Shown here: positions 3,811-45,075 of the stretch, piece after piece
Position numbering within the stretch: the first letter of the stretch is position 1
Layout of the letters: each line of letters begins with the position of its first letter
Assembly: GCA_947474995.1 (NCBI GenBank)
Contig: CANJNJ010000021.1
Location: forward strand, 1 to 47,929
DNA from: Opitutaceae bacterium
Lineage (GTDB): Bacteria > Verrucomicrobiota > Verrucomicrobiia > Opitutales > Opitutaceae
Direction: 5' to 3'
Length of the DNA stretch: 47,929 nt
Notes under the pieces: model-generated
Databases searched by the model: none
What the model was told of the DNA's origin: nothing
The model's input: the letters and a program-made list of their open reading frames with translations, nothing else
Position numbers and translations under genes: made by a program

Positions 3811-4138
3811 TTTTTGGAGGTGGTTTGAACGGAAAAGAGACGAGGACGGACGGAGCGGCCGCGGTTCCACCGGTTAATTTGCGGATGGCCCTGGCGGCGG
3901 ATTTTGATCCCGCTAAAAAGTGGATATCAACACTTGGGACGGAGCCAACCGGCGCGTCCTCCACGCCATGGCGGGAGGGGGTTGTGCCAGCCTCTTTGCG
4001 GGATAGCCGGGGGGAGAGCAACAGGTGGAGGCGGCGGGCAAAGGTGGCGGGGTAGGCTCATGCAACTCTAGCCGCCGACCTGATAGTGGTTATGTCCACA
4101 TGTCAAGTTTCGTTCCGGACCACCGGGCGATCCCGACG
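3811..4138. other. Intergenic region upstream of TonB receptor, candidate promoters
   Basis: 328 bp without a gene between the receptor start and the RAYT unit. Two weak minus-strand promoter candidates are visible. One has TTGATA at 3925-3930 with a poor -10 (TCAAAA) 17 nt away. The other has a perfect TTGACA at 4101-4106 with TATCAG at 4080-4085, but the spacing is only 15 nt. Neither is convincing. A short partly symmetric stretch (TGGTTATGTCCACA) overlaps the second and could be an operator. Nothing else is apparent. Confidence 0.25.
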
Positions 4139-4162
4139 GGGTCAGGGCGCTACAAGTTAATT
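4139..4162. repeat. Left 24-bp terminal inverted repeat of RAYT unit
   Basis: Exact reverse complement of 5138-5161. It contains CTAC (complement of GTAG) at 4150-4153. Symmetry breaks immediately outside and inside the 24 bp. Confidence 0.85.
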
Positions 4163-4229: not shown

Positions 4230-5150
4230 ATGGCGCGGCCGTTGCGAATCCAGTTTCCCGGTGCCCGGTATCATGTCATCGACCGCGGAAACTATCGGCA
4301 CCCGGTTTTTCGTTCGACCGGCGCAGCGCAGGCATTCACCCGCGTGCTCGACGAAGCCGCCCGGTGCCATGGCTGGCGCCTGCACGCGCATGCGCTGATT
4401 CCGAACCATTTCCATCTCGCACTCGAAACGCCCGAGGCAAACCTAGTCGAGGGCATGCACTGGCTGCTGGGCACCTTCGCCAGCCGGTTCAATCGATTCC
4501 GCGGTGAAAGGGGCCATCTGTTTCAGGGGCGTTATCAAGCCCTGCTGGTCGAGGACGACGCGCATCTTGTTCGCCTGATCAACTACATCCACCTCAACCC
4601 GGTGCAGGCGCAGTTGGTGCCTCTGGAGCGACTGCCGGATTTCCGCTGGAGTAGCATGCGAGCGTTCGCCCGCGGCCCCCGCCCCGGTTGGCTCAGCGCC
4701 GCCACACTACTCGCCCATCTCGGGCTGACCGATAACGCTGGCGGCTGGCGCAGCTACCTGGACCTTCTGGCCGAAATCGCGCGCCACCCGCTCCAACTCG
4801 CTGCCGAGGAGGAGGAATTTACGAGCGGCTGGTCGATCGGCAGCCCTAACTGGAAGTCCGAGATGCTGGCTGCCCATCCCGTGCTGGCGGATGACCCGGG
4901 AATCTCCGGCGCGGAGCGGCGAGCGGCCAACGAGGAGCGCTGGCAACGTGAACTTGCCGCGGCGTTGCTCGAGGCCGGCAAATCCGCGGCCGACATCGCC
5001 GGCGATCCCAAGGGATCCTCATGGAAAATTGCTGCCGCCGTGCGCCTCCGTCTTCGTGCCCGCGCCCCGCACCGCTGGATCGCTGCCTCGCTCAACATGG
5101 GATGCGCCGCCTCCGTCCGCGTCTATGTCTCGCGCCAAATTAACTTGTAG
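4230..5150 (+). CDS. REP-associated tyrosine transposase (RAYT, Y1/IS200-like)
   Basis: A 306-residue single-strand transposase of the HUH superfamily. The N-terminus MARPLRIQFPGARYHVIDRG is the standard RAYT opening. The metal-binding HUH motif is H60-F61-H62 (PNHFHLALE). The nucleophile is expected to be Y119 in LINYIHLNPVQ. GHLFQGRYQALLV between them is also characteristic. The extra C-terminal region, about 130 residues, ends in a helix-turn-helix-like stretch (KIAAAVRLRLRARAPHRWIAASLNMG), as in longer RAYTs. Start at 4230: ATG with no good Shine-Dalgarno sequence. The stop TAG lies in the terminal repeat. All catalytic residues are present, so the enzyme could be active. Such proteins cut and mobilise palindromic REP sequences with a GTAG or GGAG head; several such palindromes occur elsewhere in this window. 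Confidence 0.93.
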   Translation: MARPLRIQFPGARYHVIDRGNYRHPVFRSTGAAQAFTRVLDEAARCHGWRLHAHALIPNHFHLALETPEANLVEGMHWLLGTFASRFNRFRGERGHLFQGRYQALLVEDDAHLVRLINYIHLNPVQAQLVPLERLPDFRWSSMRAFARGPRPGWLSAATLLAHLGLTDNAGGWRSYLDLLAEIARHPLQLAAEEEEFTSGWSIGSPNWKSEMLAAHPVLADDPGISGAERRAANEERWQRELAAALLEAGKSAADIAGDPKGSSWKIAAAVRLRLRARAPHRWIAASLNMGCAASVRVYVSRQINL

Positions 5151-5161
5151 CGCCCTGACCC
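5138..5161. repeat. Right 24-bp terminal inverted repeat of RAYT unit
   Basis: Exact reverse complement of 4139-4162. Reading AATTAACTTGTAGCGCCCTG, it encodes the C-terminal INL and stop of the transposase. It shares the GTAGCGCC head with the REP-like elements at 37922, 44390 and 44623. Confidence 0.85.
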
Positions 5162-11440: not shown

Positions 11441-11634
11441 ACCCGCGGACGCGCGCGTTCCTGCAATTCGGCACGCTGGTGTTGGTGGGTCTGCTGCTGG
11501 TTTTCGTCTTCCCGCGCGCCGCCGCGTGGGCCGAGATGGCCGCGCGCGAAATCCGCTACCTTTGGTGGCTGATTTTACTCGTCGCGCTCGGCGGATGGCT
11601 GATCTGGGCCGGCCGGCGACGACCCCGGGAGTGA
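11437..11634 (+). CDS. Small two-helix membrane protein of the SPFH operon
   Basis: 65 residues with two hydrophobic segments (about 9-26, QFGTLVLVGLLLVFVFP, and 43-58, WWLILLVALGGWLIWAG) and an Arg-rich end (RRRPRE). Its ATG overlaps the TGA of the second SPFH gene in an ATGA junction, which is good evidence that it is translated. I do not recognise a family. The tight coupling suggests a partner or adaptor of the SPFH complex. Confidence 0.75.
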   Translation: MNPRTRAFLQFGTLVLVGLLLVFVFPRAAAWAEMAAREIRYLWWLILLVALGGWLIWAGRRRPRE

Positions 11635-11669: not shown

Positions 11670-11687
11670 AAATCAACTTGTAGCCCT
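11670..11687. repeat. Relic resembling a RAYT-unit end
   Basis: AAATCAACTTGTAGCCCT matches the right end of the RAYT unit (AAATTAACTTGTAGCGCCCT) except for one substitution and a 2-nt gap. It lies 36 bp after the small membrane gene and just before the dispersed repeat at 11724. It may mark an old insertion or excision. Confidence 0.4.
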
Positions 11688-22413: not shown

Positions 22414-22426
22414 CGGCCGGGGGTTG

Positions 22427-22487
22427 GTAGTTCCGCCTTCAGGCGGAAGGGATTGTCGCACCCGAATCCGCCTGAAGGCGGAACTAC
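22427..22487. repeat. REP-B inverted pair, copy 1
   Basis: 22427-22447 (GTAGTTCCGCCTTCAGGCGG plus A) is exactly inverted at 22467-22487, with 19 nt between. Each arm is itself a hairpin (TTCCGCC...GGCGGAA) with a GTAG head, the layout of a BIME (paired inverted REPs). It begins 13 bp after the NamZ-like stop. Confidence 0.75.
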
Positions 22488-22558
22488 GAACTTCGAACCA
22501 TTCTTCCTGGCGCGAAGATATCGTTGCCCCGACGCCCGCGGCCCGAAATCCTCCACCC

Positions 22559-23608
22559 ATGGCCCGGCCCAAGAAAGTATCGCAGACCCAGCTCGCGCGA
22601 GAACTCGGCATTTCCCAAGCGCTCGTCTCGCTCGTCCTCAACGGGCACAAGCAGGGTATCAGTCCTGAGACCTACGATCGCACGTGGGCGCACGCGGTGA
22701 AGCGCGGTTATCACCCCAAGGGCATGCGGCTGGCGTCTTCTCCCGCCGCGAAGGGGCGCCAGGTCGGCATCATTTTCCGCGCGCCGCTCCGGCTGCACAC
22801 GCCGTCGATGTATTTCGGCCATGTGCAGCACGGACTGCACAGCGCCATCGAGGCGCGCGAGTTCACCACGGTGTTTCTGGGGGCCGAAGATCAACTCGAC
22901 GCGGCCAAGTTGCGCCGGGTGTTTGCCCCCGGCCATTCGTTCCATGGGCTCGTGCTCGTCGGCGAGGTCACCCGGGGCTTCCTTGACCAACTGCGGAAAT
23001 TCGGCCTGCGCATCGTGGCCGTTTCCGCCCGCTTCCCCGGCCTGTGCCACTCCGTCCTCGGCAACGAGCCGCAGGCGCTGCACGCGATCGTCGAACATCT
23101 CCACCGCCTCGGGCACCGGCGCTTCGGCTGGCTCGGCGGCAACGTGGGCCTGGGTCGCCACGAATCCCGCCTGCAGGCCCTGGAATCCGCACTCGCGGGC
23201 TTTAGTCTCAAGCTCAAGCTCAAGCCGCAGTATGCGGTCAAACTCAAGGACGGCGATCGCATCGACGGCGCCGAGGCCGTCGCTTCGCTGCTGCCGCTGG
23301 CCCGGCGGAGCGACTTTCCCACGGCCTTCATCACCTACAACACGCTCATGGCGGCGGGCGCAGTTCGGGCCCTGAGCCGCGAGGGCTGGGACGTCCCCGG
23401 CGACTTCAGCGTGGCCAGCGCCGACTATTCGCCCATCGCCCACGAAAATACGCCGACCCTGACGGCCGCCGGCTCCAATCCGGAAAAATTGGGCGAAGCA
23501 GCCGCGCGCCTGGTGCTCGAAGCGCCCGCGGGCGAGGATGACGGTTTCACCGACCTCATGCTGCCGGCGCAGTTCTTTGTCGGGGATTCGACCGGTCCGG
23601 CGAAGTAG
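22559..23608 (+). CDS. LacI-family transcriptional regulator
   Basis: A 349-residue regulator. Start at 22559 gives MARPKKVSQTQLARELGISQ, the first helix of a LacI helix-turn-helix, followed by ALVSLVLNGHKQGISPETYD with the hinge region after RGYHPKGM. The rest is a periplasmic-binding-protein-like effector domain (VGIIFRAPLRLHTPSMYFGH, LHRLGHRRFGWLGGN, FPTAFITYNTLMAAGAVRAL, DFSVASADYSPIAHENTPTL). It sits between the NamZ lipoprotein and the symporter and probably controls one or both in response to a sugar or sugar acid. It is flanked on both sides by REP-B pairs. The frame extends upstream into REP-B copy 1, which I consider non-coding. Confidence 0.92.
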   Translation: MARPKKVSQTQLARELGISQALVSLVLNGHKQGISPETYDRTWAHAVKRGYHPKGMRLASSPAAKGRQVGIIFRAPLRLHTPSMYFGHVQHGLHSAIEAREFTTVFLGAEDQLDAAKLRRVFAPGHSFHGLVLVGEVTRGFLDQLRKFGLRIVAVSARFPGLCHSVLGNEPQALHAIVEHLHRLGHRRFGWLGGNVGLGRHESRLQALESALAGFSLKLKLKPQYAVKLKDGDRIDGAEAVASLLPLARRSDFPTAFITYNTLMAAGAVRALSREGWDVPGDFSVASADYSPIAHENTPTLTAAGSNPEKLGEAAARLVLEAPAGEDDGFTDLMLPAQFFVGDSTGPAK

Positions 23609-23669
23609 GCGGCCCGCGGCGAGGTAACGATGCATCCGCCTGGCGGAATAACCGCCGTGATTTCGCGGA

Positions 23670-23685
23670 CGCCGGTCGGAGACCC
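23670..23685. repeat. Partial REP-A element
   Basis: CGCCGGTCGGAGACCC is the inverse of GGTCTCCGACCGGCG with the GTAG half lost. It looks like a decayed fourth copy of the family at 37922 and 44390. Confidence 0.4.
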
Positions 23686-23704
23686 GGGCCCTGTCGGGCG
23701 GTTA

Positions 23705-23765
23705 GTCGTTCCGCCTTTCGGCGGAAGGATTGCATCACCCGGATTCCGCCTGAAGGCGGGACGAC
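23705..23765. repeat. REP-B inverted pair, copy 2
   Basis: GTCGTTCCGCC...GGCGGAA at 23705-23726 and its inverse (TTCCGCC...GGCGGGACGAC) at 23744-23765. The head here is GTCG rather than GTAG. It lies 65 bp upstream of the symporter start. Confidence 0.7.
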
Positions 23766-29110: not shown

Positions 29111-29138
29111 CCCGTCGACCGGGAATGAATCCCCGGCG

Positions 29139-29621
29139 CTACGGCTGCACCGCTTGAATCTCCACTTCGTGCCGGAACGGCGACGAGGCGAGCGTGACCA
29201 CGTGGGCGTTGATCGTCCGGTAGCGCACCCGGCCGCCGAAGGTAATCCGCACGTCCACATTGAGGCCATGGCGCAGTTGGCTGTCGTCGGCCTGATATTC
29301 GATTTGAAAGGGCACCGGTTCTGTCACCAGCGCGTCGAGCGTGCGGCGATATTCGCCCAGCACTCGCTCCACCGGCAGCGTCCGCCCGCGATCCCCGAGC
29401 GGAAGTTCCGCACCCGGGTTCATCGCCATCTTTTCGATCGGCGTGATATCCAGCAACCGCACCAGAATCTCGGTACCCGCCGGCAAGGCGGAGTGCAGAC
29501 TTACCACCCCAGTAAGCACGCGCTCGGGGTTTCCCTCGGGCGTGATGTTGATGTGTTCACAGCCCGCGCCCATCCCCAGCAGACCGAGCGCACCAAACCA
29601 GACGAGGACGGAAAGTTTCAT
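29139..29621 (-). CDS. YbaY-like lipoprotein
   Basis: A 160-residue lipoprotein: N-terminal signal MKLSVLVWFGALGLLGMGAG followed by Cys21, a slightly atypical lipobox (GAGC). The mature part is a small beta-sandwich with the YbaY/type III secretion pilotin-like pattern: VLTGVVSLHSALPAGTEILV, VRLLDITPIEK, PVPFQIEYQADDSQL and YRTINAHVVTL. The ATG at 29621 overlaps the stop of the upstream glycosidase-like gene by 4 nt, so the two are translationally coupled. Function in the envelope is unknown. Confidence 0.8.
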   Translation of the reverse strand: MKLSVLVWFGALGLLGMGAGCEHINITPEGNPERVLTGVVSLHSALPAGTEILVRLLDITPIEKMAMNPGAELPLGDRGRTLPVERVLGEYRRTLDALVTEPVPFQIEYQADDSQLRHGLNVDVRITFGGRVRYRTINAHVVTLASSPFRHEVEIQAVQP

Positions 29622-36587: not shown

Positions 36588-37925
36588 ATGAGCTCACTCG
36601 CAATCATCGGCACCGGCATCGGTGGACTCGGCTGCGCCCATTTTTTGCACCGGCACTTCGAACTGACGCTTTTCGAGCAAAACAGCTACGTGGGCGGTCA
36701 CACCAACACCGTTTCCGCCCTCGAACCCGGCACCGGACGCAGTGTACCGATCGACACGGGTTTCATGGTCTTCAACAAGGTGACGTATCCACACCTGACG
36801 CGACTGTTCACGGAACTCGACGTGCCGATCAAACGGACGGAAATGTCGTTCAGCGTGCGCCACGCGGACACCGGACTCGAATTCGCCGGTTCGTCGCTCA
36901 ATCACCTCTTCGCCCAACGCCGCAATCTGCTCCGTCCGCGTTTCTGGCGCATGCTCTCCGCCATCAACCGCTTCAATTCCGAAGCCGTCGCGGCGCTCGA
37001 AGATCCCGCCATTCAGGACGAAACCCTCGGCGCCTACGTGAAGCGCCGCGGGTATGGTGATGACTTCTTCAACCTGTATCTCGTCCCCATGAGTTCCGCG
37101 GTTTGGAGCACGCCGCCGGCGCTGATGCTGGAATTTCCCGCCACGACCTTGCTGCGCTTTTTTCACAACCACGGTTTCCTTGGCCTGAGCACCCAGCACC
37201 CGTGGTGGACCGTCGAGGGTGGCGCCAAAACCTATGTCGCGAAAATCACGGCGCCATGGCAGGATCGCATCCGGCTCGACCAGCCGGCCACCCGCGTCGT
37301 CCGAACCCCGCGCGGTGTCGTCATCATGACCGCCAGCGGCCAGGCGCAAGTCTTCGACCACGTCATCCTCGCCTGCCATGGCGACCAGGCGCTTCGGCTG
37401 CTCGCCAACCCGACGTTGGCCGAAGCACGGGTTCTCTCCGCCTTTCGCTACCAATCCAACATGGCCACGCTGCACACCGACGCGTCCGTGATGCCGCGGA
37501 CCCGCCTCGCGTGGTCGAGCTGGAACTACGAACTGAATCGGGAAAAGTCCGGCCGCGTCTCGAGCGCCACGCACTATTGGATGAATTCGCTCCAGGGCGT
37601 TTCCGATCGGGAAAACTATTTCGTGTCCATCAACCGTCCCGAGGCCATCGCGCCCGAACGCGTGCTGCGCCGGATTGAGTACGAGCACCCGCTCTTCAGC
37701 CTCGAGGCCGTCCGCGCCCAGGCGGAAATTCCGGGGCTGAATGCCGCAGCGCACGGTGGCACGGAGACGTATTTTGCCGGTGCCTGGCAGCGTTTCGGCT
37801 TCCACGAGGACGGCCTGCTGAGTGCCGTCCGGGTCTGCGAACAAGTGCTGGGCCGCGATCCGTGGTTGGCGTCACCCAAGTCGGCGATCGACGCCAAGCC
37901 GGCGAACGCGCCGGCCGTTCCGTAG
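36588..37925 (+). CDS. FAD-dependent oxidoreductase (amine-oxidase-like) of lipid cluster
   Basis: A 445-residue flavoprotein of the NAD(P)-binding/amine oxidase family. Start at 36588 gives MSSLAIIGTGIGGLGCAHFL, with the GxGxxG dinucleotide motif, followed by ELTLFEQNSYVGGHTNTV, the flavin-binding glutamate and GGH loop. C-terminal THYWMNSLQGVS and AYFAGAWQRFGFHEDGLLSA-type residues (TYFAGAWQRFGFHEDGLL) fit the conserved FAD C-terminal motif. Homologues are typically next to DUF1365 and cyclopropane-fatty-acid-synthase genes, as here, and in furan or 10-methyl fatty acid pathways a flavoenzyme of this sort acts as desaturase or reductase. The stop TAG is part of the REP palindrome at 37922. 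It starts the plus-strand cluster after a terminator. Confidence 0.9.
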   Translation: MSSLAIIGTGIGGLGCAHFLHRHFELTLFEQNSYVGGHTNTVSALEPGTGRSVPIDTGFMVFNKVTYPHLTRLFTELDVPIKRTEMSFSVRHADTGLEFAGSSLNHLFAQRRNLLRPRFWRMLSAINRFNSEAVAALEDPAIQDETLGAYVKRRGYGDDFFNLYLVPMSSAVWSTPPALMLEFPATTLLRFFHNHGFLGLSTQHPWWTVEGGAKTYVAKITAPWQDRIRLDQPATRVVRTPRGVVIMTASGQAQVFDHVILACHGDQALRLLANPTLAEARVLSAFRYQSNMATLHTDASVMPRTRLAWSSWNYELNREKSGRVSSATHYWMNSLQGVSDRENYFVSINRPEAIAPERVLRRIEYEHPLFSLEAVRAQAEIPGLNAAAHGGTETYFAGAWQRFGFHEDGLLSAVRVCEQVLGRDPWLASPKSAIDAKPANAPAVP

Positions 37926-37944
37926 CGCCGGTCTCCGACCGGCG
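37922..37944. repeat. REP-A palindrome, copy 1
   Basis: GTAGCGCCGGTCTCCGACCG plus GCG: an 8-bp perfect stem (CGCCGGTC/GACCGGCG) with TCC loop and a GTAG head. The TAG of the head is the stop codon of the FAD oxidoreductase gene. Confidence 0.8.
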
Positions 37945-38122
37945 TCCGGAGCCTTCCGCCAAAAACCCGCCCCCGGCAAAGGTCACGACCCGCCCGAATC
38001 GGCCCCTTTTCCGGTGGGACCCAAGGCCGCCACTCGCTAAATATCGGAACCATCTTATTACCCAAAGCATCCGCCCCGTGCCGCCACCCGTACCACTGCC
38101 TGATGCCATCGTTGGAGAGCGC

Positions 38123-38983
38123 ATGAATTCCTGCCTTTACGAATGCCACGTCATGCACGCGCGGTTCTCGCCGCTCCCGCATCGCTTCGTTTATCGCCTG
38201 TTTCTCTTCGCGATCGACCTCGACGAGTTGGACGCTTTGCACCGGCAACTGGCGCTATTTTCGGTCGACCGCCCCAACCTCTACTCGTTCCGCGACCGGG
38301 ACTATCTGCCGACGGGCGAAGCCATCCACAACGCCGACCCCCGCCCGACCGCCGCGTCCGCTTCGTCGCGGGCGGCGTCGCTCAAGCAGCGCGTTCGCTC
38401 GTTCCTCGCGGAGCGGGGCGTGGATCTCGCGGACGGCCGCGTCCTGCTGGTCACCCTGCCCCGCGTGGCCGGCTACGGCTTCAATCCAGTGTCGTTCTAT
38501 TTTTGCTTCGACGGAGCGGGCACGCCAATTGCTTCGCTCGCGGAGGTCACGAACACCTTCAAAGAAATGAAACCCTACTGGCTCGGCCCGGAAACCAGAC
38601 CGGCCGAGTCCGGCGCCTTCCATCTCCGCCTGCCGAAGCATTTCTATGTATCTCCGTATTCGGACGTCGACGTGGCGTTTGATTTCACGCTGCACGTACC
38701 CGCCGATCGCCTGGCGCTTCAAATCGACGACTTCATCGGCACCGAGCGCACGCTCACGACGACCCTCACCGGAGCGCGCCAGGAACTGACGAACTCCCGC
38801 CTGGCCTGGTTCACGCTCAAATATCCCCTCCTCACCCTGCGCATCATCTTCCTGATCCACTGGCACGCCTTGCTCCTCTGGCTCAAACGCGTACCGTGGT
38901 TCGCCAAAGCGGCGCGCGCCGATGACCAACGCGGTCTCTACCGGCCCCACGACTCCCTCCTCCAGCCTTCCGATCACGCATGA
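38123..38983 (+). CDS. DUF1365 family protein
   Basis: A 286-residue protein of the DUF1365 family. Start at 38123 is supported by a GGAGAG Shine-Dalgarno sequence 6 nt upstream. Features: MNSCLYECHVMHARFSPLPH, RFVYRLFLFAIDLDELD, LLVTLPRVAGYGFNPVSFYF, AEVTNTFKEMKPYWL and KHFYVSPYSDVDVAFDFTLH. The tandem aromatic GYGFNPVSFYF is the hallmark of the family. Its biochemical role is unproven. It is regularly linked to the FAD oxidoreductase upstream and to the SAM methyltransferase downstream, which it overlaps by 4 nt (ATGA). Confidence 0.92.
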   Translation: MNSCLYECHVMHARFSPLPHRFVYRLFLFAIDLDELDALHRQLALFSVDRPNLYSFRDRDYLPTGEAIHNADPRPTAASASSRAASLKQRVRSFLAERGVDLADGRVLLVTLPRVAGYGFNPVSFYFCFDGAGTPIASLAEVTNTFKEMKPYWLGPETRPAESGAFHLRLPKHFYVSPYSDVDVAFDFTLHVPADRLALQIDDFIGTERTLTTTLTGARQELTNSRLAWFTLKYPLLTLRIIFLIHWHALLLWLKRVPWFAKAARADDQRGLYRPHDSLLQPSDHA

Positions 38984-40323
38984 GTTCGCCGTCCAACGCT
39001 CCCTCCGCTCCGTTTCCCCTGGTCCGCCCCGGCCAACCGGAAAGCCACACCGGCAAGCCCGAACCCTTTGCTCGCTCGCTCTGGCAGCGCGCGGTGGTTC
39101 GCGCTTTCGCCGAGATGAAACGCGGCCACCTGCGCCTCGATCTGCCCGACGGCACGAGCCTCGACTTTGGTTCGCCGGCCGACGCGAACACGCGCACGCT
39201 GCCCCTGGATCTGCCGGCCGCCGCGCAGATTCGGGTTCGGCGATCGGCGTTTTTCACGAAATGTTTCTGGTCCGGCGACATCGGCTTTGCCGAGTCGTTC
39301 CTCGACGGCGACTGGGACACCCCCAACCTCACCGCGGTCGTCGCCTGGTTCATCCTGAACCTCGACGACGCGCCGACGCTTTCCGGGTCCCGCCGGGCCC
39401 GCTCCGCCGCTTTGAATCTCCTGCGCGTCGCGAACCGCGTCGGCCACGCGCTCCGCCCGAATACGCGCACCATGGCCCGGCGCAATATCCAGGAGCACTA
39501 CGATCTTTCGAACGAGTTCTTCGGCCTGATTCTGGATCCGTCGATGATGTACTCGTCGGCCCTGTGGCCCGAGGGCGCGCCGCACCTTTCGCTGGGAGAG
39601 GCCCAACGGGAAAAGAACGACGCCTTGTGCCGCCAGCTGCGGCTGACCGCGAACGACCACGTGCTCGAAATCGGCAGTGGCTGGGGCGGCTGGTCGCTCC
39701 ATGCCGCGAAGACCTACGGCTGCCGCGTGACGACGGTGACCATTTCGCAGCAGCAATTCGATTTTGCCCGCGCGCGCATCGCCGCCGCGGGACTCGCCAA
39801 TCGGGTCGACGTGCAACTGCGCGACTACCGGGATCTCACGGGCCGCTTCGACAAGGTCGTCTCGATCGAAATGATGGAGGCCCTGGGCCATCGCTACCTG
39901 CCCGAATTTGCCGCCGTGATCGACCGCGTGCTGAAACCCGAAGGATTGGTCGCGTTCCAGTTCATCACCTGCCCGGATGCCCGCTACGACCGACTGCGCC
40001 ACGGCGTCGACTTCATCCAGAAGCACATCTTCCCCGGCTCGCTGCTGTTGTCGCTGAATCGGGTCAATGACCTCATGGCCAAAGCCGGCGGGTTCGTGCT
40101 CCATCGCGCCACGGACTTCGGCCTCGATTACGCCCGGACCCTCCGCCTTTGGCACCAGCAGTTCCAAGCCCAGCACGACGCCGTGCGGGCGCTCGGGTTC
40201 GACGAGCGCTTCGTCCGCAAGTGGAACTACTACTTCAGCTACTGCGAAGCCGCCTTCGCGATGCGCAATATCTCCGTCGTGCACACCGTGCACACGCGGC
40301 CGAATAACCTTGGGCTCAAGTAG
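38980..40323 (+). CDS. Cyclopropane-fatty-acid-synthase-like SAM methyltransferase
   Basis: A 447-residue protein of the CFA synthase family, which transfers a one-carbon unit from SAM to the double bond of phospholipid acyl chains. Features: IQEHYDLSNEFFGLILDPSM, MYSSALWPEGAPHLSL, motif I HVLEIGSGWGGWSLHAAKTY, TISQQQFDFARARI, EMMEALGHRYLPEFAAVIDR, DFIQKHIFPGSLL, and WNYYFSYCEAAFAMRNI with the family Cys and Tyr residues. The catalytic residues appear intact. The length is greater than the E. coli enzyme by about 65 residues. It is coupled by ATGA overlap to DUF1365. The stop TAG is part of the following GTAGCGAG repeat. Confidence 0.92.
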   Translation: MSSPSNAPSAPFPLVRPGQPESHTGKPEPFARSLWQRAVVRAFAEMKRGHLRLDLPDGTSLDFGSPADANTRTLPLDLPAAAQIRVRRSAFFTKCFWSGDIGFAESFLDGDWDTPNLTAVVAWFILNLDDAPTLSGSRRARSAALNLLRVANRVGHALRPNTRTMARRNIQEHYDLSNEFFGLILDPSMMYSSALWPEGAPHLSLGEAQREKNDALCRQLRLTANDHVLEIGSGWGGWSLHAAKTYGCRVTTVTISQQQFDFARARIAAAGLANRVDVQLRDYRDLTGRFDKVVSIEMMEALGHRYLPEFAAVIDRVLKPEGLVAFQFITCPDARYDRLRHGVDFIQKHIFPGSLLLSLNRVNDLMAKAGGFVLHRATDFGLDYARTLRLWHQQFQAQHDAVRALGFDERFVRKWNYYFSYCEAAFAMRNISVVHTVHTRPNNLGLK

Positions 40324-40393
40324 CGAGGTGTGCGCAGCGGGTAGCGAGCATCTCGCTTCGACCGCTTAGTCTACTCCCTACTCGCTACTCTCG
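40321..40393. repeat. GTAGCGAG/CTCGCTAC repeat cluster, copy 2
   Basis: The element starts at the stop codon of the CFA-synthase-like gene (AAGTAGCGAGG), repeats GTAGCGAG near 40351 and ends with CTACTCGCTACTCTCG at 40378-40393, identical to 27858-27873. Confidence 0.55.
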
Positions 40394-40395
40394 CT

Positions 40396-40803
40396 ATGCT
40401 CCTCGCTCTTCGTTCTCTCTTTCTCCTCGTCCTCGCCTCGATGCTCGCGGTCACGACCTGGGCCAGCCTGCGCTGCCCCTTATTTGCCGTGCCGCGCGAC
40501 GTCTTCACGCACCCCTGGTTCATTGCCACCCTGTTCGATGCTTATTGGGGTTTCCTCACATTCTTTGTCTGGGTTTGGTACAAGCAAACTTCCGGGATCG
40601 CGCGTTCGGCCTGGTTTGTCGCCATCATGCTGCTGGGGAATATCGCGATGTCCGCCTTCTGCCTCGCCGAGCTGATGCACGGCGACCGCAAAACCGACCT
40701 CCGCGACCTGCTGACCGCCCGGCGCGAAGGCATTGGCGCACTGGGTTTATCGCTCGCCACGCTGGGAGTCGTGGTCGTGGCCCTGGGCCTGCCGCGAAAT
40801 TGA
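40396..40803 (+). CDS. DUF1475-like small membrane protein
   Basis: A 135-residue protein with about four membrane segments (MLLALRSLFLLVLASMLAVT, FIATLFDAYWGFLTFFVWVW, SAWFVAIMLLGNIAMSAFCL, GLSLATLGVVVVALGL). LFDAYWGFLTFFVWVWYK is the signature of DUF1475 proteins. Biochemical function is unknown. It lies within the CFA-synthase/DUF1295 cluster, and similar small proteins recur in comparable clusters. No ribosome-binding site is evident. The frame starts 3 nt after a repeat. Confidence 0.82.
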   Translation: MLLALRSLFLLVLASMLAVTTWASLRCPLFAVPRDVFTHPWFIATLFDAYWGFLTFFVWVWYKQTSGIARSAWFVAIMLLGNIAMSAFCLAELMHGDRKTDLRDLLTARREGIGALGLSLATLGVVVVALGLPRN

Positions 40804-40838
40804 ACGAATCGATGATACGTCGAGGGCCGCACGTGTTG

Positions 40839-40902
40839 GTCGTTCCGCCTTTAGGCGGAATCCGAACCACCCAAGCCATCCGCCTACCAAAGGCGGGACG
40901 AC
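40839..40902. repeat. REP-B inverted pair, copy 3
   Basis: GTCGTTCCGCCTTTAGGCGG plus AA at 40839-40860 and an inverse copy (TCCGCCTACCAAAGGCGGGA plus CGAC) at 40879-40902. Related to 22427-22487 and 23705-23765. Confidence 0.7.
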
Positions 40903-41003
40903 CAACGAGGCCCAGCCTGCCCTCGACGAGCCCGGTCCGACGAGGCGATTATGCGCGCAACTCGGCTTCCCATCCGGCCAAACTGTGTTATCCGTTCTGG
41001 TCT

Positions 41004-41564
41004 GTGTCTGAATCCGACCCCGTCCTTCCCCCCACCCCGGATGTGCCGCCGCGCAACCTCTGGCAAAGGCGGGTCGTCGATCCCATTGTCGCCCAGCTCA
41101 CGCAGGGCCTGACCCCGCAGAAGATCGCGCTGACGATCGCCATCGGCAGTTCGATCGCGATGTTTCCCATCCTCGGGACGACGACGCTCATCTGCCTCAT
41201 CGTGGGCGTGTTCATGAAATTGAACCAGCCCATCATCCAGGCGGTGAACTGGGCGTGCACGCCCATCCATATCCCGTTCATCTTTTATTCCTTCAAGTGG
41301 GGAGAACTGGCCTTCGGGTCCGCCCATACGCGGCTGGAGATGCGGGTGATGCGCCGGCTGCTGGTCGATGATCCGCTGCGCTTCGTGCAGGACTACAGTA
41401 CGACCGCCCTGCACGCGGTCGTGATTTGGGCCATCCTCGTGCCTTTTTGGGCGGCGGCCGTGTATTATATTTCCCTCCCGATCATGCGAAGCATTGAAAG
41501 TGCCCGCCTGGCCGCCGCGGCCAAAGCCGCCACCGAAAAGGCGCGCACCCACCCGATTCCGTGA
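41004..41564 (+). CDS. DUF2062 membrane protein
   Basis: A 186-residue protein from a GTG at 41004 (VSESDPVLPPTPDVPPRNLW); the frame continues upstream through REP-B copy 3, so the later start is preferred. DUF2062 features: PIVAQLTQGLTPQKIALTIA, IGSSIAMFPILGTTTLICLI, FMKLNQPIIQAVNWACTPIH and ILVPFWAAAVYYISLPI. About three or four membrane helices. The stop overlaps the next gene's GTG start (GTGA). The role is unknown; homologues occur with lipid or glycosyl transferase genes. Confidence 0.85.
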   Translation: MSESDPVLPPTPDVPPRNLWQRRVVDPIVAQLTQGLTPQKIALTIAIGSSIAMFPILGTTTLICLIVGVFMKLNQPIIQAVNWACTPIHIPFIFYSFKWGELAFGSAHTRLEMRVMRRLLVDDPLRFVQDYSTTALHAVVIWAILVPFWAAAVYYISLPIMRSIESARLAAAAKAATEKARTHPIP

Positions 41565-42355
41565 ACGCGCTCCCACTCGGGCTCTTCGCACTCGCCGTGC
41601 TGTGCGTTGGCTTCGCCGCACTCTTCCTCGTCGCGCGCCGGCTCGAAAATTATGGCGTCGTCGACATCGCCTGGTCGTACGCTTTCGGCGCCCTCGCGGC
41701 CTTCTACGCGCTCGCCGCCACCGGCTGGCCCTGGCGGCGGGCGTTGGTGGCCGCCATGGCCGTGCTGTGGAGCGGCCGGCTGGGCACGCATTTGCTGGTT
41801 CGCGTTTCCCACCATCATCCGACCGAGGATGCGCGTTACGCCCAATTGCGCCGCGACTGGTCGGCCAATTTTGCCTCCAAGATGTTCGGTTTCTTTCAGC
41901 TTCAGGCCGTCTCCGTCGTGCTGCTCGGCGCGGCCTTCCTGCTCGCCTGTCGCAACCCGGCGCCCGCCCTCCATCCGCTCGAGTGGACCGGCGCCATCCT
42001 CTGGCTCCTCGCGCTCAGCGGCGAGGCGATCGCCGACGCCCAACTCGCCGCCTTTAAGCGCGACGCGGCTCATCGCGGCCAGGTCTGCGCCGTGGGTCTG
42101 TGGCGCTACAGCCGGCATCCGAACTATTTTTTCGAGTGGCTGATTTGGGTGGCTTACTTCGTGTTCGCCCTCGCCTCGCCCCTCGGCTGGATCGCCGTGA
42201 TTGGCCCGGCCGCCATTCTTTATCTGCTGCTGCGGGTCACGGGTATTCCGATGACCGAGGAACAAAGCGTGCGCAGCAAAGGCGACGCCTACCGGCGCTA
42301 CCAGCAAACGACGAGTGCGTTCGTCCCCTGGTTTCCCCGCCCGCCCGCTCCATGA
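41561..42355 (+). CDS. DUF1295 (steroid 5-alpha-reductase-like) membrane protein
   Basis: A 264-residue integral membrane protein from a GTG at 41561 that overlaps the upstream stop by 4 nt. LENYGVVDIAWSYAFGALAA and SGRLGTHLLVRVSHHHPTED are typical of DUF1295. The C-terminal LWRYSRHPNYFFEWLIWVAY is the conserved 5-alpha-reductase/isoprenylcysteine methyltransferase-type cofactor-binding segment. The family includes reductases acting on double bonds of lipids, which fits a cluster with CFA-synthase-like genes. The stop overlaps the next ATG by 4 nt (ATGA). Confidence 0.9.
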   Translation: MNALPLGLFALAVLCVGFAALFLVARRLENYGVVDIAWSYAFGALAAFYALAATGWPWRRALVAAMAVLWSGRLGTHLLVRVSHHHPTEDARYAQLRRDWSANFASKMFGFFQLQAVSVVLLGAAFLLACRNPAPALHPLEWTGAILWLLALSGEAIADAQLAAFKRDAAHRGQVCAVGLWRYSRHPNYFFEWLIWVAYFVFALASPLGWIAVIGPAAILYLLLRVTGIPMTEEQSVRSKGDAYRRYQQTTSAFVPWFPRPPAP

Positions 42356-43362
42356 TCGATGCCTTGCTCGAAAAGAATCTGCTGCCCGACTGGGCGGTTC
42401 GACGCGGCATTCGCCGGCTCCTGGCCCAGCGCATTCGCGACGAGTCCGCGCACTACGACCGGGCCGACTACGTCAGGGATCTCCAGACCCGCCCGATCGC
42501 CGAACAAACCGCCGCGGCCAATGAGCAACACTACGAGGTGCCGGCGGCGTTCTACCAGGCGTGCCTCGGCCCGCGGTTGAAATATTCGGGCTGCCTCTAT
42601 GCCACCGGCCGCGAGACGCTCGCCGAAGCCGAGGAGGCCATGCTCGCGCTCTACGTCGCGCGCGCCCAAATTTCCGACGGTCAGGCCATCCTCGAGCTGG
42701 GCTGCGGCTGGGGCTCCCTGTCGCTCTACCTCGCCGCCAAATTCCCCCGCGCCCAAATCACCGGCGTCTCGAACTCGCACTCGCAACGGGAATTCATCGA
42801 AGGCGTCGCCCGCCAGCGCGGCCTGTCCAATCTGCGCATTCTCACGTGCGACTTGAACGCCCTCGAACTCGCGCCCGCGCAATTCGACCGCGTCGTCTCG
42901 ATCGAGATGTTCGAGCACATGAAGAATTATCAGCGGCTGCTCGCGAACATCGCCCGCTGGCTCCGGCCCGGGGGCCAGCTGTTCGTGCACATTTTCACGC
43001 ACTCCCGGTTCTCCTATCATTTTGTGGCCCGCGATTCGACCGACTGGATGGCGCGGTACTTTTTCACCGGCGGCCAGATGCCCGCCCACGATCTCCTTTC
43101 GTGTTTTCAGGCCGACCTCCGGCTGGTCACCGACTGGAAGGTCAACGGCACCCACTATCAGCGCACGGCCGAGCACTGGCTGCAAAACATGGACGCGCAT
43201 CGCGCGGAGATTTTGCCGTTGTTCGCCGCCACCTACGGACCCAACGAGGCGACCAAGTGGTGGGCCTACTGGCGCACCTTCTACCTGAGCTGCGCCGAAC
43301 TCTGGGGCTATCGCGGCGGCGAGGAGTGGCTCGTGAGTCACTACTTGTTTCGGAAACCGTGA
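42352..43362 (+). CDS. Second CFA-synthase-like SAM methyltransferase
   Basis: A 336-residue relative of the cyclopropane-synthase family, shorter than the one at 38980 and closer to the coclaurine-N-methyltransferase-like branch. Features: NEQHYEVPAAFYQACLGPRL, KYSGCLYATGRETLAEAEEA, motif I ILELGCGWGSLSLYLAAKFP, GVSNSHSQREFIEGVA, VVSIEMFEHMKNYQRLLANI and PGGQLFVHIFTHSRFSYHFV. Active residues differ from true CFA synthases, so the acceptor may be another lipid or amine. Co-transcribed with DUF1295, by overlapping ATGA. Having two family members in one cluster suggests two successive methylations or two acceptors. Confidence 0.9.
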   Translation: MIDALLEKNLLPDWAVRRGIRRLLAQRIRDESAHYDRADYVRDLQTRPIAEQTAAANEQHYEVPAAFYQACLGPRLKYSGCLYATGRETLAEAEEAMLALYVARAQISDGQAILELGCGWGSLSLYLAAKFPRAQITGVSNSHSQREFIEGVARQRGLSNLRILTCDLNALELAPAQFDRVVSIEMFEHMKNYQRLLANIARWLRPGGQLFVHIFTHSRFSYHFVARDSTDWMARYFFTGGQMPAHDLLSCFQADLRLVTDWKVNGTHYQRTAEHWLQNMDAHRAEILPLFAATYGPNEATKWWAYWRTFYLSCAELWGYRGGEEWLVSHYLFRKP

Positions 43363-43425
43363 ACGCGAAGGCCGGTCAACCTGCCAGCGAGCGACCGGGT
43401 ATTTCCCGATCCATCGCTCCCAACC

Positions 43426-43516
43426 GTCTCACGCGGAGACGCGTCTCACGCGGAGCACGGCGAAATTCGTCCCTTTGCCCTGGTCTCCTCCGCGTCTCCG
43501 CGTCTCCGCGTGAAAC
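43426..43516. repeat. Inverted repeat CACGCGGAGACGCG type
   Basis: GTCTCACGCGGAGACGCG at 43426-43443 is matched in inverse at 43499-43516 (17 of 18). Extra partial copies lie between. This is a palindromic intergenic element in the gap after the second CFA-synthase-like gene. Confidence 0.5.
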
Positions 43517-43631
43517 GGTTCGACGACCGATAAATGGTCGCCCTTCCGCCCTTCGCCCAGTTGCCCGGTGGCGGCATGGGCCGACGAGCGCAGGCAACCA
43601 AGCCAAGGATTCACGCGTAAGATTTGGAATC

Positions 43632-44393
43632 ATGGCCTGGGTTCGTTTCGCTCTCGTGCTCGGCTTCCTCATGGGTGGCAGGCCGGTTCTTTTGGCCGCC
43701 GACGTCGAGGCTCTGCTCCGCGAAGCCCACGCCGCGGAGGCCAGTCTCGACTCGCAACACGCGCTTGATCTCTACCTCGCGGCCGAAACGCTACGACCAA
43801 ACGATGCGGCGATTCTCCAAAAAATCGCCCGCCAGTATTCCGATCGGATCGTTGATCTCACAACGGATGCCGAAAAAAAGGCCTCGGCCGAAAGCGCCCT
43901 CGCCTACTCGCAGCGCGCGGTCGCCCTAGACCCGCGCAACGCGGTCAACGTCCTCTCGCTCGCGATCTGTCACGGCAAACTCGGCCTCTTCGGCGACACC
44001 CGCACGAAGGTTGCCAGTTCCCGGTTGGTCCGGGACGAGGCGGAGCGCGCGCTCGCCCTCGATCCCAACTACGCGTGGGCCCACCATGTCCTCGGGCGCT
44101 GGCATTATGAGGTAAGTGACCTGGGCTTCGCGGCCCGGGCGTGGGTGCGACTGTTTTACGGCGGGCTGCCGGACACCTCGATGGCCGAAGCCGTGCGACA
44201 CCTTTCCCTGGCCGTCCAACTCGAGCCGGACGAACTCGCCCATCATCTCGAACTCGGCTTCGCCTTGCTGGCCGCCGGCCAGAAGGAAAAAACCCGCGCG
44301 GCCTTCGCACACGGCCTCGCGCTGCCCTCGCGCGGCAAACACGACGAACCCGCCAAAGCCCGGGCCCGCGCCGCGCTGGCCGGTTTGAGGTAG
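43632..44393 (+). CDS. TPR-type secreted protein
   Basis: A 253-residue protein with an N-terminal signal (MAWVRFALVLGFLMGGRPVL) and helical TPR-like repeats: LREAHAAEASLDSQHALDLY, AILQKIARQYSDRIVDLT, ALAYSQRAVALDPRNAVNVL, ALALDPNYAWAHHVLGRWHY and HLSLAVQLEPDELAHHLEL. The arrangement resembles regulator-of-microtubule-dynamics-like TPR proteins found in many bacteria. It probably mediates protein-protein contacts in the periplasm. The stop TAG lies in the REP palindrome at 44390. Start at 43632, no clear ribosome-binding site. Confidence 0.85.
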   Translation: MAWVRFALVLGFLMGGRPVLLAADVEALLREAHAAEASLDSQHALDLYLAAETLRPNDAAILQKIARQYSDRIVDLTTDAEKKASAESALAYSQRAVALDPRNAVNVLSLAICHGKLGLFGDTRTKVASSRLVRDEAERALALDPNYAWAHHVLGRWHYEVSDLGFAARAWVRLFYGGLPDTSMAEAVRHLSLAVQLEPDELAHHLELGFALLAAGQKEKTRAAFAHGLALPSRGKHDEPAKARARAALAGLR

Positions 44394-44412
44394 CGCCGGT
44401 CTCCGACCGGCG
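44390..44412. repeat. REP-A palindrome, copy 2
   Basis: Identical to copy 1 at 37922-37944: GTAG head, CGCCGGTC/GACCGGCG stem, TCC loop. The TAG is the stop codon of the TPR gene. Confidence 0.8.
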
Positions 44413-44453
44413 TTGGCAACATCCCGGCCCAATCAACCAAGCCCAAGCGATCC

Positions 44454-44505
44454 ATTCAGAAGCCAGGAAGCCAAGTATTCACTCCTGGTTTCCTGGCTTC
44501 TGAAT
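44454..44505. repeat. Perfect 16-bp inverted repeat
   Basis: ATTCAGAAGCCAGGAA (44454-44469) and its exact inverse (44490-44505) with a 20-nt loop. AT-rich compared with the surroundings. It could be a bidirectional terminator between the TPR gene and the convergent VOC gene, or another palindromic element. Confidence 0.6.
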
Positions 44506-44601
44506 TAATCCAGATTTTTCCCGTGCTCCTCCAACGCCGGTTTCCCCGGCGGAATAAAACTCCGCGCGGCCGCTGGATCGGCATTTACCCTTCACGTCCA
44601 A

Positions 44602-44623
44602 CGCCGGCAGAGACCGGCGCTAC
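44602..44623. repeat. REP-A palindrome, copy 3 (inverted)
   Basis: Reads GTAGCGCCGGTCTCTGCCGG plus CG on the minus strand, one position different in loop/stem. Its TAG (44620-44622) is the stop codon of the minus-strand VOC gene. Forms an inverted pair with copy 2. Confidence 0.78.
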
Positions 44624-45075
44624 TTTTCCTCGGCCGACGGCGGTTTCAGCTGCGTTGGCTGCGGCGGTACCACGGTCGCCGGCGTCTTGAATTCCAATCG
44701 CCGCCCGTCGGGATCGCGCACGTAGAGGCTGCGGCCGCCGTGCACCCACCGCGTCTCGCGCTCGATTACCACTTCGCGCCGCGTGAGCCATTTTTTCCAC
44801 GCCTCATAGCCGTCGGCCGTAATCGAGAACGTCAGGGTCGAGGGCGTGCCCACGGCGGCGACGCTGGCCATTGGCGCAATCGAACCGTCGCTCTTCACCA
44901 GCAGCAGCATGCCGCCTTCGCCAGTGTCGACTTCGGCGTAGCGGTCCGTGTCCCCGTCCTGCACCTCCAGTCGAATATTGTCCCGATAGAACGCCACCGA
45001 CCGCTCGACATCTTCCACGAGCAGGATCGTCTGCTGGCCACCGTCGAGGCGGGGTATGATCGGTCGCTTCTTCAT
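44620..45075 (-). CDS. VOC-family (glyoxalase/dioxygenase-fold) protein
   Basis: A 151-residue vicinal-oxygen-chelate protein. Start at 45075 (MKKRPIIPRLDGGQQTILLV); the longer frame from 45237 is low-complexity. The two beta-alpha-beta units are VEDVERSVAFYRDNIRLEVQ and WKKWLTRREVVIERETRWVH, ending in SLYVRDPDGRRLEF, the usual metal-ligand Glu strand. The C-terminus is a Pro-rich tail (PATVVPPQPTQLKPPSAEEK). Function could be lyase, dioxygenase or antibiotic binding; the sequence does not decide. Stop TAG is provided by REP-A copy 3. Confidence 0.87.
   Translation of the reverse strand: MKKRPIIPRLDGGQQTILLVEDVERSVAFYRDNIRLEVQDGDTDRYAEVDTGEGGMLLLVKSDGSIAPMASVAAVGTPSTLTFSITADGYEAWKKWLTRREVVIERETRWVHGGRSLYVRDPDGRRLEFKTPATVVPPQPTQLKPPSAEEK

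Follow-up and report, generated by a model that had tools for sequence, protein, structure and literature searches.

Stop codons supplied to flanking genes by a GTAG-tagged repetitive extragenic palindrome in an Opitutaceae genome

Repeats and gene ends in the window

The window, meaning the whole stretch of 47,929 nucleotides analysed here, is contig C21 of an Opitutaceae genome of 5.24 Mb in 261 contigs. Genes were called with a purpose-written codon-usage script rather than a published gene finder; its starts are unreliable, and a correct frame is enough to fix the stop. The script was trained on the window's genome and reused for three genomes of the same genus (G002, G004 and G005), while for G075, a genome of another genus, it was trained separately. 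The features concerned are as follows.

4139-4162, minus strand: left arm of the 24-nt terminal inverted repeat of the transposase, a perfect match to the right arm
4230-5150, plus strand: Y1 transposase of the RAYT/TIRYT kind (PF01797, E 2.9e-10), its TAG within the right terminal inverted repeat; outside the REP-A family
5138-5161, plus strand: right arm of the 24-nt terminal inverted repeat, containing GTAGCGCC and the transposase stop
23666-23689, minus strand: degenerate REP-A-like copy that gives no gene its stop, 57 nt past the end of gene 22559-23608
29119-29142, minus strand: related GTAG hairpin GTAGCGCCGGGGATTCATTCCCGG, in whose TAG the minus-strand gene 29139-29621 ends
36588-37925, plus strand: gene for a FAD/amine-oxidoreductase-like protein (PF01593, Pfam), ending ...APAVP-TAG within REP-A copy 1
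37922-37944, plus strand: REP-A copy 1, exact GTAGCGCCGGTCTCCGACCGGCG; TAG at 37923-37925 is the stop of gene 36588-37925, with an RNA hairpin directly after
40320-40390, plus strand: repeat stretch of the GTAGCGAG type, from which the CFA-synthase-like gene 38980-40323 takes its AAG-TAG stop
43632-44393, plus strand: gene for a TPR-repeat protein (TPR by Pfam), ending ...LAGLR-TAG within REP-A copy 2
44390-44412, plus strand: REP-A copy 2, exact GTAGCGCCGGTCTCCGACCGGCG; TAG at 44391-44393 is the stop of gene 43632-44393
44602-44623, minus strand: REP-A copy 3, GTAGCGCCGGTCTCCGACCGGCG minus one base in its second half; TAG at 44622-44620 is the stop of gene 44620-45075
44620-45075, minus strand: gene for a glyoxalase/VOC-fold protein (PF00903, Pfam), ending ...AEEK-TAG within REP-A copy 3

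The first-pass annotation had claimed that each intact REP-A copy, on either strand, ends the flanking gene in frame with its TAG. We found this in all three copies and confirmed every coordinate. Its reading of the cyclopropane-fatty-acid-synthase-like gene 38980-40323 as ending in a repeat also stood, the end reading AAG-TAG-CGAG. The gene that stops at the TAG of GTAGCGCCGGGGATTCATTCCCGG (29139-29621, minus strand) is an additional case absent from that annotation.

The consensus of REP-A is (C)CGAA-GTAG-CGCCGGTC-TCC-GACCGGCG-T(C/T)GG. Conservation extends beyond the 23 bases of the unit: A occupies each of positions -2 and -1 in 54-68% of copies, and most copies continue on the 3' side with T, then C or T, then two Gs. 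In the fold of the consensus CCGAAGUAGCGCCGGUCUCCGACCGGCGUCGGG, three outer pairs enclose a GTAG bulge; when the window copies were folded with their flanks, GTAG was partly and weakly paired to the flank in two of the three. A short stem-loop with GTAG left unpaired at one end places REP-A among the GTAG-tagged repetitive extragenic palindromes.

The transposase gene had been described as ending in its own repeat. It does end in GTAGCGCC, but this is part of the perfect 24-nt terminal inverted repeat (AATTAACTTGTAGCGCCCTGACCC) and no REP-A copy; the GTAGCGCC of the arms is a short likeness to REP-A. Like the TIRYT elements described by Di Nocera et al. (PMC3733652), the window transposase has a Y1 domain and long inverted repeats (24 nt, perfect), and its gene overlaps the repeat at the 3' end. 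The TIRYT motif GGGGWSAS fits its left side (GGGGTCAG, 4138-4145), while the right side (AGGGTCAG) misses the first letter. Judged by the description in the main-text parts of that article, the transposase fits TIRYT, although its repeats are not REP-A. There are seven Y1_Tnp matches in the window's genome, one of which (C42:7830-8075) has a copy of a close REP-A variant, GTAGCGCGGGTCTCYGACCCGCG, on either side; the script called no gene there. We infer that this match is a better candidate than the window transposase for moving REP-A. A partial likeness to the inverted repeat of the transposase (AATCAACTTGTAGCCCT) was observed at about 11671-11687, downstream of a short ORF ending at 11634.

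Placement of REP-A copies relative to stop codons

Searching the window's genome with the 22-base core TAGCGCCGGTCTCCGACCGGCG at up to three mismatches gave 152 matches, and none for the backward control. Among the 117 distinct copies examined, 37 supply the stop of a gene (36 TAG and one TAA), where uniform placement expects about one. Overlap was found in every mismatch class (9/29, 14/42, 10/31 and 4/15). Within -60 to +4 of a same-strand gene end lie 69 copies, and all 37 occupy the one overlapping position, for which the uniform expectation is 1 in 65. In G075, where the core is present in 174 copies at up to two mismatches, 113 copies were examined: 16 overlap a stop, nine lie directly after one and nine are spanned by a same-strand gene. 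The overlap rate is below that of the window's genome (Fisher 0.002), and 16 of 55 nearby copies again fall at the one overlapping position of 65. Genome-wide counting thus bears out the suspicion, raised from the window, that stops are overlapped more often than by chance.

GTAG repeats that are common near gene ends could bring TAG into frame by luck, and the earlier observation rested on only three copies; the excess in each of the three same-genus genomes alone is also weak (P 0.14, 0.048 and 0.075). Concentration of 37/69 and 16/55 nearby copies at a single position nevertheless refutes luck for the window's genome and for G075, and as a general account we consider it highly improbable.

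On their GTAG side, 75 of the 117 copies have a same-strand gene 3' end as neighbour; besides the overlapping ones, 28 sit 0 to 30 nt past the stop. Gene 3' ends within 30 nt number 65 on the GTAG side vs eight on the other side, and 44 vs two in G075. REP-A is mostly extragenic, with nine copies inside genes (five same-strand, four opposite-strand), and of the five same-strand genes that span a copy, two stop at a TGA within its loop. The stop frame was occupied in 37 of 42 cases (binomial 3e-13 if landing is even over the three frames, a model that ignores relatedness among copies and selection). These counts establish the position, frame and strand of the stop-supplying copies.

In 22 copies the triplet is neither TAG nor TAA any more. 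No read-through in this frame was seen for any of them (TGA remains in one, and another lies at the edge of a contig and could not be judged). The sole TAA copy still ends its gene. GTCG replaces GTAG in 11 of the 117 copies; no stop overlap occurs among these, seven of which are located 4-40 nt past the stop of a same-strand gene. The TAG of REP-A behaves as though needed by the overlapped genes, an argument from read-through that follows partly from the definition of overlap. Folding of the 30 nt after the stop gave a median of -14.4 kcal/mol for the 37 overlap genes vs -6.7 for 38 genes ending in TGA or TAA, a difference that arises largely by construction.

The codon before the stop is AAG in 20 of the 37 overlap genes (19 AAG-TAG, one AAG-TAA). 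Since AAG stands at the same place in 26 of the 80 non-overlapping copies as well, the terminal lysine is at least partly derived from the repeat. We also looked for a remnant of the native stop in the 6 nt after the repeat and found no enrichment there (6/37 overlap copies vs 11/80 others), so a native stop directly 3' of the repeat was rejected.

An inverted partner lies within 150 nt on the 3' side of 34 REP-A copies in the window's genome, and 83 of the 117 lack one; in G005 it was found for 36 of the 60 copies examined. Such inverted pairs are presumably comparable to REPIN dimers. A reading in which GTAG is only the target site and no part of the element was dropped, since stops can come from either outward end of an inverted pair (L037 and L056; L273 of G005). 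At L273 a single inverted pair ends two convergent genes simultaneously.

At no mismatch the core was present in four of the 29 genomes searched, namely the window's (58 copies), G002 (44), G005 (43) and G004 (11). Stop overlap in the same-genus genomes was rare among the copies examined: 2/60 in G005, 1/62 in G002 and 1/13 in G004 (Fisher against the window's genome 5e-6, 5e-7 and 0.11, respectively). Most G002 copies belong to a sub-variant with a different loop, and many lie within longer repeats; with these and the inverted pairs of G005, the comparison is not one between identical elements. The extended unit at up to one mismatch was found in six of 252 genomes of the family, the window's included, and 18 extended units were counted in G075.

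Stops made of GTAG plus a hairpin of any family were also counted. In 80 named loci they occurred in 5/65 genes ending in GTAG vs 7/627 ending in TGA, 2/205 in TAA and 3/68 in other TAG. In loci of the same-genus relatives the values were 1/13 for GTAG vs 4/16 for other TAG, 5/109 for TGA and 2/20 for TAA. As the two sets disagree, a general GTAG-hairpin excess outside the window's genome is weak and mixed.

C-termini of overlapped genes compared with relatives

Overlap genes picked as likely conserved, and the VOC gene, were searched for relatives in the same-genus genomes, which allowed 23 genes to be compared (22 of the 37 overlap genes and the VOC gene). Judged by likeness from reading the sequences, some overlap genes are presumably of housekeeping type (isopropylmalate dehydrogenase, dihydroorotase, UvrC and cyclophilin). 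In a search for a nearer relative that might show empty sites, the best of 80 loci retained from the matches listed had 82% protein identity, and the best among the same-genus genomes compared had 81%.

The 82 relative genes stop with TGA (58), TAG (18) or TAA (6). Relatives that lack the palindrome might have carried the same TAG and flanking sequence, but 64 of the 82 stop with TGA or TAA. No REP-A copy was seen at the stop among the relative stops inspected. Hairpin-like stretches of other kinds come after a few of the TAG stops (L138 and L160 among them), and in two G005 relatives (L130 and L147) a REP-like stretch follows shortly past the stop. L130 and L019 of the window's genome are the same gene and have a REP copy at the 3' end in both; the copies differ in orientation and place, which suggests separate insertions.

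The closest relative ends no more than one residue away for 13 of the 23 genes. Against the median relative, 10 genes are within one residue, nine are shorter by 3 to 10.5 residues and four are longer by 2.5 to 13. C-terminal length agrees within one residue in 44% of 82 pairs of an overlap gene with its relative, and in 38% of 169 pairs of relatives. The C-termini of overlap genes therefore differ from those of relatives no more than relatives differ mutually. The proposal that insertion creates new C-termini stood in part: nine of the 23 genes are at least three residues shorter than the median relative, whereas many conserved ends change by zero or +1 residue. Truncation does occur, but we rejected it as the general rule from the distribution around the median. 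The clearest shortenings are in L011, L029 and L090 (9-11 residues) and L028 (2-13).

Two genes of the window illustrate how these values are to be read. The length measure may miss gaps: it puts the FAD gene at +5 to +17, yet the tail after DPW has 19 residues vs 2-18 in 14 relatives. The VOC gene has one glyoxalase-like part in the window and in L175, and is a fusion of two such parts in L181 and L184; its length values of 13 mean little because two of its three relatives are fused to a second domain.

Erosion could also place stops in this way. Copies would land in the 3' untranslated stretch, and later small deletions or loss of the native stop would move the gene end onto the TAG, where erosion halts. 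The unenriched native-stop remnants agree with this, as do the non-overlapping copies sitting close to stops in the window's genome and the four of 23 genes at least 2.5 residues longer than the median relative, as after stop loss (two of these four values are doubtful). However, stop loss by point mutation would lengthen a gene by the distance to the repeat, and 10 of the 23 genes are within one residue of the median relative. We regard erosion as rather improbable.

Retention, aimed insertion and known systems

The data favour retention of nearly harmless insertions, with aimed insertion as a lesser possibility. According to the retention account, which we hold to be somewhat more probable than its negation, REP-A insertions at gene 3' ends cost little and are kept, and their TAG then becomes needed. 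A single-strand transposase of the RAYT type would spread REP-A. A copy landing at a gene 3' end with GTAG facing the coding strand would, in one phase, terminate the frame immediately (NNG-TAG, often AAG-TAG). Being of little cost to the protein, these copies would be retained, presumably by selection; the native stop past the repeat would then be free to decay, so that the TAG becomes needed. On the mRNA, a stable hairpin would now begin at the stop codon, with the possible effect of shielding the 3' end or of delaying termination. Three observations count against this account. There are 37 copies at the exact position vs about 0.9 copies per nt over the 31 positions just past stops, which exceeds random landing with tolerance, so more than tolerance is needed. 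Native-stop remnants are not enriched after the repeat. In addition, overlap is rare in G005, G002 and G004, whose repeat is identical or similar.

In aimed insertion, the transposase or single-stranded gene 3' ends would prefer a stop context, and copies with an in-frame stop would survive. Copies do pile up against stops: in the window's genome nine copies are at offsets 0, -1 and -2 and 19 are spread over the following 28 positions, the corresponding counts for G075 being 15 and 12. Several conserved C-termini altered by zero or +1 residue point in the same direction. Against this, the repeat's own AA or GA before GTAG can complete a TAA or TGA when a T precedes it, which ties the pile-up to stop supply, and G005 and G002 carry the repeat without pile-up on stops. 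We judge aimed insertion unlikely, though a serious candidate. Its more elaborate form, in which the transposase recognises gene 3' ends with stop codons as the landing site and the 5' end CGAAGTAG has evolved to stop the commonest phase, allowing almost cost-free spread through needed genes, seems to us doubtful. The contrast between relatives with the same or a similar repeat makes aimed landing versus retention testable.

This kind of finding is already known, because Di Nocera et al. reported in 2013, in the main-text parts of PMC3733652, that GTAG repeats often give TAG (there called 'opal') to flanking genes. The GTAG-tagged REPs described there share with REP-A the unpaired GTAG tag, a short hairpin, many copies and a location mostly just downstream of genes. 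The main-text parts give no stop-overlap count, chance model or comparison of C-termini, while here the overlap in the window's genome was counted and found to differ sharply between relatives. For E. coli, work cited in PMC12306157 reports that REPs lying no more than 15 nt from a stop codon stall ribosomes and thereby lower translation; there too a hairpin repeat lies near the stop, but after it, whereas REP-A contains the stop. Stop supply by REP-A is a real and unusually strong instance of a known phenomenon. It adds numbers to the 2013 remark, in that about a third of examined copies carry the stop of a gene, and the proteins end about where those of relatives do.

Two other repeat families were observed nearby. 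One, built on GTTCCGCCTTTAGGCGGAAT and an inverted partner, is found in the window at 22423-22491, 23701-23765 and 40835-40884, and also adjoins some REP-A copies elsewhere in the genome. The other, a palindrome ATTCAGAAGCCAGGAAGCCA with its inverted partner, lies at 44449-44510 and recurs in genome loci such as L028, L079 and L090.
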